The notes beneath the pieces are model-generated. The model had not been told where the DNA came from. It searched no databases and saw only the letters and a list, made by a program, of their open reading frames with translations. DNA of 64,000 bases from Lachnospiraceae bacterium (GTDB taxonomy: Bacteria > Bacillota > Clostridia > Lachnospirales > Lachnospiraceae), in contig CAJTDD010000007.1 of assembly GCA_910574885.1 (NCBI GenBank), positions 1 to 64,000 of the forward strand. The letters are read 5' to 3'. The translations under genes and the position numbers were made by a program. Shown here one piece after another: positions 2,418 through 31,796 of this stretch (position 1 is the stretch's first letter; every line of letters starts with the position of its first letter).

Positions 2418-3304
2418 TAGTTGTCACCTCCGCAATTACCGCATCCACCATGATGGGTGTCACCCTCTTGTAGTTTCAGAATCGCACGGCCTTCCTCGGT
2501 CCTGTACATCTGCTGTCTCTTCATCGCATTGTCAAAATCAACCAGATGCCCGTCGAACTCCGGTCCGTCTACACATGCAAACTTCACTTCTCCGCCCACA
2601 ATTACACGGCAGGCTCCGCACATACCCGTACCATCCACCATGATTGGGTTCATGCTGACAATCGTAGGAATCTCAAGCTTCCTGGTCAGAAGACAGGTAA
2701 ACTTCATCATTATCATCGGCCCGATGGCAACACAGACGTCATATTTATTCCCCTCTTCCACCAGCTTCTCAATCTTCGTCGTAACCATACCCGCATGTCC
2801 ATATGTACCATCATCCGTACATGGGTAGTAGTTCCCGGCTACTGCTTCCATCTCTTTTTCCAGAATCAGCATGTCCTTGGTCTTGGAACCAACGATAACA
2901 TCAACGTCAACCCCATGCTCCTTCAGCCATTTTACCTGAGGATAGACCGGAGCCGCCCCCACGCCGCCGGCTACAAAGAGCATCTTCTTATTCTTCAAGG
3001 TTTCCAGATCTTCTTCTACAAATTCAGACGGACATCCCAGAGGCCCGATAAAGTCGCGGAAGGAATCTCCTGCCTTCATTTCTGCCATCTTCATGGTAGA
3101 AGCCCCAATCTCCTGGAACACAATCGTAACCGTTCCGGATTCCCTGTCGTAGTCACAGATGGTAAGGGGGATTCTCTCGCCTTTTTCATCCATCTTAACG
3201 ATTACAAACTGTCCCGGCTCACAATGCTTGGCTACACGCGGCGCTTCTACATCCATAAGATAAATCTTATCAGCCAGTTTTTCGGCTTTTAATATCTTGT
3301 ACAT
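2417..3304 (-). CDS. nfnA: NADH-dependent ferredoxin:NADP+ oxidoreductase, small subunit (NfnA; SudB-like)
   Basis: A 295-residue member of the sulfide dehydrogenase/PyrK-type ferredoxin reductase family. An FAD-binding barrel (about 1-100, GQFVIVKMDEKGERIPLTI) is followed by a nucleotide-binding fold (FVAGGVGAAPVYPQ, about 112-125). A [2Fe-2S] ligand set DGTGMCGACRV...FACVDGPEF lies near 225-250. The C-terminus is Gly/Cys rich (GGCGNCGGDN), an extra cysteine pair of unknown use. It is the first gene of a two-gene operon with nfnB and overlaps it by one base. The start has AGGAGGA just upstream, and a TTGATA-17-TATGAT promoter lies at 3336-3364. Confidence 0.85.
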   Translation of the reverse strand: MYKILKAEKLADKIYLMDVEAPRVAKHCEPGQFVIVKMDEKGERIPLTICDYDRESGTVTIVFQEIGASTMKMAEMKAGDSFRDFIGPLGCPSEFVEEDLETLKNKKMLFVAGGVGAAPVYPQVKWLKEHGVDVDVIVGSKTKDMLILEKEMEAVAGNYYPCTDDGTYGHAGMVTTKIEKLVEEGNKYDVCVAIGPMIMMKFTCLLTRKLEIPTIVSMNPIMVDGTGMCGACRVIVGGEVKFACVDGPEFDGHLVDFDNAMKRQQMYRTEEGRAILKLQEGDTHHGGCGNCGGDN

Positions 3305-29669: not shown

Positions 29670-31658
29670 TTATTTCTGGTTCCGGAACTGCATCGGCGTC
29701 GTATGATAAGCCTTCTTAAACATCCGATTAAAATGCTCCACATTCTGGTATCCCACCGACAGAGCAATATTCTCCACCGTCATATTACTGCTCTTTAAGA
29801 GCGCCTTCGCTTTTTTCATCCGAATCTTCTTCACCAGCTCCCCAAACGTCAAGCCAGATTTCTCCTTAATATACTTAGATATATAAGGCTTTGACAGATA
29901 AAACTTCTCCGCCAAATCATCCAGCGTAATGTCGATATAATTTGTCTGGATATAATTCAAAATCTCAATCATCCGCTCATCCTTGCACCCTTCTGCGCTC
30001 CCAATCTCCTCAATCTTATTCACAGCCACCGTCAGGGCCTCCATGGAGGACTTGATAATATCCGCGTCAATTCCCACGCCCCAGAAGGTCTTGCCGTTGC
30101 AGACAATCCCTACATAGGCGACGGCCTTGGAGGAAGAACCTCTGGTCAGGGAATGTTCCTCATAGAAACGAAGTTCATAGCTGATATTAAAATACTGCTT
30201 AATGGCATTGCTGACCGCATCCAGACGCCCATTCCCCATTGCCGTGATGACTCTTGCCTCACCGCCATGGTTGATGGTCACGTCAGCCGTAATTCCTTCC
30301 ACCTGCTTAAAATGGCACTCGTCAATATGGAACACAGGCCTGGTGTTAATATAATGATCCGAGAAAATCTGATATACCCAGTCTGGCGTCAGTTCCTTGT
30401 GAGCCTTATCCGAGACATCCTTCACCAGATATCCCACCTCTTCCCGCATCTTCTGCGGCAGATTGATGCCATGGCTCTGTTTTAGGATGTAGTTCACGCC
30501 GCCCTTGCCGGACTGGCTGTTGATACGGATGACGTCGGAGTCATATCTCCTTCCCACATCCTGAGGATCAATGGGAAGATAAGGAACCGTCCATGTATCA
30601 CATTCCTTCTCCTCCCTCCAAGTCATACCCTTGGCAATGGCATCCTGATGTGAGCCGGAAAATGCAGTGAACACCAAATCCCCAGCGTATGGCTGCCGTT
30701 CATACACATGCATCCTTGTCAGCCGCTCATAGGTCTCACGGATATGCTTCATGTCTGAAAAATCAAGCCCCGGGTCTACGCCATGGGAGTACATATTCAT
30801 TCCCATAGTCACGATATCCACATTCCCGGTCCGCTCTCCGTTGCCGAACAGCGTCCCTTCGATACGGTCTGCCCCGGCAAGAATCCCAAGCTCCGCCGTC
30901 GCAACGCCGCATCCCCGGTCATTGTGGGGATGCAGACAGAGAATCACGTTATCCCTGTAGTCCAGATGCTTATTCACATACTCAAGCTGGCATGCAAATA
31001 CATGGGGCATGGCATTCTCCACCGTGGTAGGTATATTGATGATTGCCTTGTTATCCGCCGTCGGCCTCCACACATCCAGAACCGCATTGCAGACCTCCAC
31101 GGCATAATCTACCTCCGTCCCCGGAAAACTCTCCGGGCTGTACTGGAAGGTAAAATTCCCGTCTGTCTCAGATGCAAGCTCCAGCAGAAGCTTCGCCCCT
31201 TCGATGGCAATCTGTTTAATCTCTTCCTTGCTCTTTCTGAACACCTGCTCCCGCTGCGCAACCGACGTGGAGTTATACAGATGAATCACCGCATGGGGCG
31301 CGCCCTTGACCGCCTCGAACGTCTTCTTGATGATATGTTCCCGGGCCTGGGTCAATACCTGCACCGTCACATCATCCGGAATCATATTCTTCTCAATCAA
31401 CGTGCGCATGAACTGATATTCCGTCTCCGAGGCCGCCGGGAATCCCACCTCAATCTCCTTGAAGCCAATGTCCACCAACATCTGGAAGAACTCCAGTTTC
31501 TCCTCCAGGCTCATTGGCTCGATTAACGCCTGATTCCCGTCACGCAGATCGACGCTGCACCAAATCGGCGGCCGATCCACATACTCCTTCTTCACCCAGT
31601 CGTAAGTAATCTCTGGAGGCATAAAATACGCTCTCTCATATTTCTGGCAATTCTTCAT
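29670..31658 (-). CDS. leuA: 2-isopropylmalate synthase fused to a C-terminal AraC-type DNA-binding domain
   Basis: 662 residues in one open frame. The HMGL-like barrel (about 30-310) has the catalytic/metal motif CSVDLRDGNQ, metal ligands in CLHPHNDRGCG and the EGTLFGNGERTGNVD loop. A linker region and the LeuA allosteric dimer domain follow (about 430-555, including HGGEARVITAMGNGRLDAVS and SLTRGSSSKAVAYVGI), where leucine inhibits the family. Residues 560-662 are a complete AraC/XylS double helix-turn-helix: ITLDDLAEKFYLSKPYISKY and TVENIALSVGYQNVEHFNRM ending in TTPMQFRNQK. The enzyme condenses acetyl-CoA and 2-ketoisovalerate in leucine synthesis. The added domain implies DNA binding. 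It is monocistronic here, with no other leu genes nearby. Confidence 0.93.
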   Translation of the reverse strand: MKNCQKYERAYFMPPEITYDWVKKEYVDRPPIWCSVDLRDGNQALIEPMSLEEKLEFFQMLVDIGFKEIEVGFPAASETEYQFMRTLIEKNMIPDDVTVQVLTQAREHIIKKTFEAVKGAPHAVIHLYNSTSVAQREQVFRKSKEEIKQIAIEGAKLLLELASETDGNFTFQYSPESFPGTEVDYAVEVCNAVLDVWRPTADNKAIINIPTTVENAMPHVFACQLEYVNKHLDYRDNVILCLHPHNDRGCGVATAELGILAGADRIEGTLFGNGERTGNVDIVTMGMNMYSHGVDPGLDFSDMKHIRETYERLTRMHVYERQPYAGDLVFTAFSGSHQDAIAKGMTWREEKECDTWTVPYLPIDPQDVGRRYDSDVIRINSQSGKGGVNYILKQSHGINLPQKMREEVGYLVKDVSDKAHKELTPDWVYQIFSDHYINTRPVFHIDECHFKQVEGITADVTINHGGEARVITAMGNGRLDAVSNAIKQYFNISYELRFYEEHSLTRGSSSKAVAYVGIVCNGKTFWGVGIDADIIKSSMEALTVAVNKIEEIGSAEGCKDERMIEILNYIQTNYIDITLDDLAEKFYLSKPYISKYIKEKSGLTFGELVKKIRMKKAKALLKSSNMTVENIALSVGYQNVEHFNRMFKKAYHTTPMQFRNQK

Positions 31659-31717
31659 AACAATTATTCTCTCCTTGCATAATATTAATCAAAAATATTG
31701 TACTTTTTTAACACCCT

Positions 31718-31733
31718 CTTATCCTAACATAAG
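31718..31733. repeat. small inverted repeat upstream of leuA
   Basis: CTTAT-CCTAAC-ATAAG, 60 bases before the leuA start. It could be an operator for the LeuA-AraC fusion, but a 5-base arm is weak evidence. Confidence 0.25.
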
Positions 31734-31742
31734 AACAGCAAA

Positions 31743-31773
31743 AAGGAAAGTGCTAATTTTAATCACTTTCCTT
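31743..31773 (-). terminator. terminator after the sodium symporter
   Basis: Minus-strand AAGGAAAGTG...CACTTTCCTT perfect 10-base arms followed by TTTGC, between the symporter stop and leuA. Confidence 0.75.
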
Positions 31774-31796
31774 GATATATTTTAATCTATTTTATT

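Follow-up and report, generated by a model that had tools for sequence, protein, structure and literature searches.

The leuA-araC gene and its product

The window, a stretch of 64,000 nucleotides from a Lachnospiraceae bacterium, carries on its minus strand a leuA-araC fusion gene of 662 codons (29670..31658) that starts with ATG at 31658, stays open to the stop at 29670 and is preceded by the ribosome-binding site AAGGAG at 31671..31676 (minus strand). Searching the 662-amino acid protein against Pfam returned, in this order and each above its cut-off, HMGL-like (residues 32-308), IPMS_D2 (327-393), LeuA_dimer (422-549), HTH_18 (582-661, 75.3 bits) and HTH_AraC (621-660). The catalytic HMGL-like barrel, which is also marked by residue conservation, is encoded at 30735..31565, the LeuA_dimer domain, leucine-sensing by family, at 30012..30395, and the AraC-type DNA-binding domain (residues 561-662, with recognition helices at about 590-601 and 640-651) at 29673..29978, all on the minus strand. 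The top NCBIfam model was the 2-isopropylmalate synthase model NF002991, which covered residues 5-548 with 802.6 bits against a curated cut-off of 455. With the HMGL barrel, IPMS_D2 and LeuA_dimer in order and a score above the curated cut-off, the window protein is, judged by sequence, an intact 2-isopropylmalate synthase, and the two helix-turn-helix motifs within a seven-helix domain (Pfam and AlphaFold2 prediction) place its C-terminal part in the AraC/XylS family. The frame, Pfam and NCBIfam confirmed what the sequence-only reading had described as one uninterrupted 662-codon frame joining a full LeuA to a full AraC double helix-turn-helix. The structure prediction that the same reading had suggested as a check gave an AlphaFold2 monomer model with seven helices at 561-660 (block pLDDT 81-89), in agreement with an AraC domain; the model had a pTM of 0.50 and low confidence at 321-386, so that the relative placement of the domains is unreadable from it. 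In the own genome, the fusion protein had 30 matches, namely one full LeuA, 28 AraC domains and one weak barrel, and its closest named record was from Sporofaciens musculi (97% identity).

The 2-isopropylmalate synthase of Mycobacterium tuberculosis (1sr9, 3fig) has the same barrel, linker and leucine domain as the fusion (E 5.6e-156), but it has no DNA-binding domain, and the match stops at fusion residue 548. In a study of that enzyme (PMC10464499), R80, N83, E218 and Y410 are residues whose mutation matters, and the Tyr410 Phe mutant is reported to be leucine-insensitive. By alignment these residues correspond to R39, N42, E176 and Y360 of the fusion, and all four, together with HxHND, were invariant in 34 diverse fusions. 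AraC/YesN-type regulators (3lsg, 6swi) share the C-terminal double helix-turn-helix domain with the fusion, but where they have their usual sensor part, the fusion has a whole enzyme.

The same 34 fusions were invariant in the barrel motifs R39-D40-G41-N42 and H243-P244-H245-N246-D247, in Y592 and S594-K595-Y596 of the first recognition helix, and in N639-V640-E641-H642-F643, R645 and F647-K648-K649 of the second. In comparisons with the window gene, the barrel had a median dN/dS of 0.015, LeuA_dimer one of 0.046 and the DNA-binding domain one of 0.022, each from 14 to 35 pairs in which dS was usable; these values are rough because dS was mostly near 1. Median dN in the same comparisons was 0 in both recognition helices. 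Purifying selection on the DNA-binding part is strong. The key helix-turn-helix residues, whose loss the sequence-only reading had considered as evidence against a working domain, have not been lost, being invariant in the 34 fusions with a recognition-helix median dN of 0.

The operator, its promoter and their co-occurrence with the domain

An upstream alignment of 36 relatives revealed a conserved block that persists though the upstream gene differs. The block reads approximately TAAAATANATCAA-N6-TGATTAAA-N5-TCACT and is followed by an extended -10 element with the consensus TGNTANNAT. In the window, this operator (TAAAATATATCAAGGAAAGTGATTAAAATTAGCACT) occupies 31749..31784 on the minus strand, has two half-sites 22 bp apart and has a core pattern that is unique in the window; the extended -10 element (TGTTAGGAT) is located at 31721..31729 on the minus strand, 47 nt downstream of where the operator ATCAA begins, and transcription is predicted to start near 31714. 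The small inverted repeat at 31718-31733, which had been proposed from the sequence as a possible target, turned out to be the extended -10 region, and the conserved operator is at 31749-31784 instead. A consensus promoter scan listed four weak other promoters and did not list the extended -10 promoter of leuA. The half-site of the predicted direct repeat is approximately WTAAAWWWATCAM, and when 35 periods were tested, the best internal repeat period was 22 bp with an identity of 0.50, the next reaching 0.43.

The spacing between operator and promoter is rigid. The distance from ATCAA to TG was 47 in 74 of the 75 loci with a -10-like match after the first operator hit (in five others there was no -10-like match), and among 101 non-redundant operator promoters, selected with a criterion that admitted 46-48 only, it was 47 in 90, 46 in 10 and 48 in one. 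When the -10 hexamer is placed at -12 to -7, the operator block covers about -70 to -35. Class II activator sites of the AraC family are direct repeats next to the -35 element, as for AraC at araBAD, and by analogy the place and arrangement of the operator match such sites; our literature search on AraC site geometry returned nothing. A TTGACA-like -35 element matching at 4 or 5 of the 6 positions was found in 35 of the 101 promoters compared with 12% of shuffles, so an activator may be dispensable at some of them.

To score operator and domain together, 200 leuA loci were examined, of which 159 were left after near-copies and short ones had been dropped. Of 115 non-redundant loci that have the DNA-binding domain, 101 carried the operator-promoter unit, against none of the 42 domain-free loci. 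The 115 loci, each with at least 300 bp upstream, comprised 112 fused genes, two split genes and one ended by a contig end; two more loci with the domain were left out of the count because their upstream DNA was short. Among the 14 domain-bearing loci lacking the operator at the criterion, 11 had looser hits of doubtful value, some in unlikely places, and three had none; loose hits were found in 0 of the 42 LeuA-only loci. Because the motif was derived from fused loci, the fair test is provided by the loci fetched after the criterion had been fixed (L191-L270), where the operator occurred in 42 of 54 fused loci versus 0 of 26 LeuA-only loci; with L184-L190 added, the former count became 49 of 61. 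A reversed-sequence control yielded 0 of 84. Phylogenetically independent pairs changed in the same direction in 5.6 of 6 cases on average and never in the opposite direction (median p 0.031, range 0.031-0.125), and a smaller first tree gave four independent pairs with a p value of 0.25. Both split genes (L059, identical with L151, and L159) retain the domain adjoining leuA as well as the operator.

Proposed mechanism and its alternatives

We propose, with a probability of roughly 0.7, that the fusion is a LeuA that also serves as a single-target regulator of its own gene, most likely as an activator, and that leucine is most likely the off-switch for both functions. LeuA forms a dimer, and each subunit of the fusion dimer would end in an AraC-type domain. 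The pair of domains would occupy the two direct half-sites with their 22-bp spacing, from about -70 to -35 and beside the -35 position, and the bound fusion would most likely activate the extended -10 promoter from a class II position. Leucine would bind LeuA_dimer, directly before the DNA-binding domain, and would most likely stop both catalysis and activation, so that one domain would set enzyme activity as well as enzyme amount. The putative control of DNA binding by leucine fits the domain anatomy. The earlier idea that the enzyme may be its own regulator gains support from the sequence comparisons, in which the operator tracks the DNA-binding domain and, within the genus, occurs in its exact form nowhere but ahead of leuA.

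A rather less probable alternative is that the fusion represses its own promoter with leucine as the co-repressor, for example through the operator together with a downstream inverted half-site in a PutA-like manner. End-product repression is a common logic of biosynthesis, and PutA is described as a repressor (PMC8249747). The downstream element (ACAA-N5-TTGAT) lies past the predicted transcription start, at 31688..31701 on the minus strand of the window, and was present at this place and at a nearly fixed distance in 43 of the 101 operator-bearing promoters and in 49 of 60 in a closer set. However, the element is absent from 58 of the 101 promoters, the constant operator ends beside -35 and leaves the -10 element and the transcription start uncovered, and the rigid spacing to -10 is typical of contact with RNA polymerase.

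It is improbable that the DNA-binding domain controls other genes and that control of leuA is secondary or absent, even though AraC proteins often regulate their neighbours and a sodium:solute symporter gene lies upstream in the window clade. The neighbours of leuA vary between lineages while the operator remains constant, and the exact sites in the genus stand only before leuA. Pattern TAAAANANATCAANNNNANTGATTAAA, with up to two mismatches allowed, gave 12 hits in 12 genus genomes, 10 of them exact, one per genome and all ahead of the fusion; the other two hits carry two mismatches, and a reversed-pattern control gave one hit. Two genus genomes had no hit: no leuA was matched in G009, and in G011 the gene is broken at a contig start. 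A looser pattern with three mismatches gave 13 hits in the own genome (the leuA site, one with one mismatch and 11 with three mismatches) versus 23 for the reversed control, so weak secondary targets are neither demonstrable nor dismissible at this level. The site with one mismatch (C30) was rejected as a second operator of the own genome, since it sits inside an open frame. At leuC (L126-L137) and leuB (L149), the DNA examined contained no operator.

We assign a slightly smaller likelihood still to the view that the domain is a structural tail that does not bind DNA and that the upstream block works at the RNA level, as a terminator or attenuator. In the window clade the block does fold as a hairpin with a T-run (31740..31773, minus strand; -12.8 kcal/mol, z -3.84), which overlaps the operator and may end upstream transcription. 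However, the second hairpin arm is gone in other clades while ATCAA, TGATTAAA and TCACT remain, the block sits upstream of the -10 element, the recognition helices hardly vary, and the block is absent wherever the domain is absent. It appears that operator and terminator overlap in the window clade, although a pattern scan for terminators found none at 31740..31773. The hairpin arms of this clade co-vary (GGAAAGTG/CACTTTCC and GGGAAGTG/CACTTCCC), as seen at 31740-31773 on the minus strand of the window and at L020, L022 and L035. We also considered the conserved upstream block as merely the terminator of the symporter gene and rejected this, since the block stays where the neighbours differ; it may double as a terminator.

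Distribution, T-box leaders and related systems

The fusion occurs in many Lachnospiraceae. At least 91 of 396 Lachnospiraceae genomes, including the own genome and several single-contig ones, have an uninterrupted fusion match to residue 659 or beyond, a lower bound obtained by hand count among the matches listed, at about 850 bits and above. A match to the fusion protein at E 1e-60 or better was found in 366 of the 396 genomes, and among the 396 there were one fusion ended by a contig end (G161) and two split genes (G065, G081). The source genome is assembled in 126 contigs and its contamination is estimated at 7.9, which might suggest that an assembly or frameshift artefact joined leuA to its neighbour; this notion is refuted by the recurrence of the fusion, in single-contig genomes too, and the stop or frameshift between the two parts that the sequence-only reading had allowed for has not appeared. 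In other records, 63 loci (L009-L071) hold the whole or part of the fusion at 64 to 97% identity, L059 being split and L057, L062 and L070 incomplete at contig ends; record titles with the fusion include Dorea, Faecalicatena, Merdimonas, Extibacter, Hespellia, [Ruminococcus] faecis and many Lachnospiraceae. Across the order (294 genomes), the matches listed included 32 full-length fusions, all in Lachnospiraceae, and 12 matches from other families that stop at residue 560 or earlier, at a threshold (E 1e-200 or better) that diverged fusions outside Lachnospiraceae could escape. Several Lachnospiraceae genomes, such as G018, G029, G110 and G144, have a second leuA-like match alongside the fusion.

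Presence of the DNA-binding domain requires nine changes on a tree of 159 LeuA parts, which could mean that it was gained once or a few times and lost repeatedly, or that it was gained repeatedly. We looked for decayed AraC remnants behind LeuA-only genes (for example, G150 and G239) and rejected this idea, since none were seen by eye at 18 loci. At the split locus L151 (L059), leuA ends at a stop and is directly followed by a separate domain-only AraC frame of about 105 amino acids (2740-3065, minus strand) with its own likely ribosome site, the operator being kept. At L159, where the operator is also kept, the reading frame shifts by -1 behind eight consecutive A on the way from leuA to the AraC domain (about 2509-2533, minus strand); slippage, a split or an assembly error may explain this shift.

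The T-box, an RNA that senses tRNA charging, is the control device of leuA in most of the LeuA-only relatives tested; the window fusion would control the same gene as a protein. A T-box leader (RF00230) was found in 31 of the 38 LeuA-only loci tested (14 of 18 and 17 of 20), a set that left out L265-L270, six of the 26 later loci, and in which L256 and L261 are near-identical. The tally for fused loci was 10 of 48 distinct ones, which were chosen rather than sampled at random (5 of 10 chosen, 2 of 19 and 4 of 20 by set, with L198 identical to L069). Nine of these ten T-box-bearing fused loci also have the operator (L045, L048, L051, L056, L069, L194, L218, L219 and L229). The fusion thus often stands without a T-box, and sometimes both control layers are present on one gene. 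The window had no T-box, with 0 Rfam matches at the gathering score, and none was found at the two split loci or at the own leuC or leuB. Between T-box and leuA, a Clostridiales-1 sRNA (RF01699) was observed at two LeuA-only loci (L152, 2458-2616; L251, 2189-2352).

We consider the chances about evenly balanced for a fuller proposal, in which a feedback-inhibited biosynthetic enzyme activates its own promoter only, catalysis and expression are both set by leucine at a single domain, and this protein loop has replaced the T-box in a large part of the family. If true, one polypeptide in common gut bacteria would be enzyme, sensor and regulator in a compact feedback circuit, and at leuA a protein would seem to have taken the place of an RNA switch. 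Fused, split and domain-free forms occur in nature, some with the operator and some lacking it, and they allow a direct test of how enzyme-based gene control evolves; such a part could also be used as a leucine sensor.

The DNA-binding fold of PutA is ribbon-helix-helix. E. coli PutA is a trigger enzyme with a DNA-binding domain and a single-target regulator of its own gene (PMC8249747). PutA differs from the fusion in being catabolic and a repressor, whereas the fusion is biosynthetic, belongs to a feedback-inhibited family, has an AraC-type domain and has its operator in an activator position. The fusion is probably a trigger enzyme of the PutA kind, in which the enzyme and the pairing are new and activation probably takes the place of repression. 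Ada, likewise an enzyme joined to an AraC-type domain, is a methyltransferase and an activator of its own gene. It differs from the fusion in being a suicide protein of DNA repair, in the position of the domain and in its signal, which is DNA damage instead of an end product. Titles and abstract starts in PubMed Central, a scope mostly outside subscription journals, yielded no LeuA-AraC protein. The earlier remark that no characterised enzyme of this layout is known fits the PubMed Central literature, but many genomes have the layout.

The nearest free-standing AraC proteins (L072-L085) were found through the second recognition helix, and their protein likeness there is by selection. In 7 of these 14 loci, ATCAA-N6-TGA and a -10-like TGNTANNNT at 44 nt are located between araC and the next gene; this arrangement was absent in the other seven and occurred once in 782,571 bp of fusion loci. 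At seven AraC loci of the own genome there was no intergenic site of the ATCAA-N6-TGA type. At L075, L076, L079 and L081-L084 (between 3636 and 6713), which have in common an ATCAA-N6-TGA site and a -10-like element at 44 nt, large AraC proteins of 607-782 amino acids stand ahead of what seem, from gene lengths only, to be sugar-ABC gene sets.
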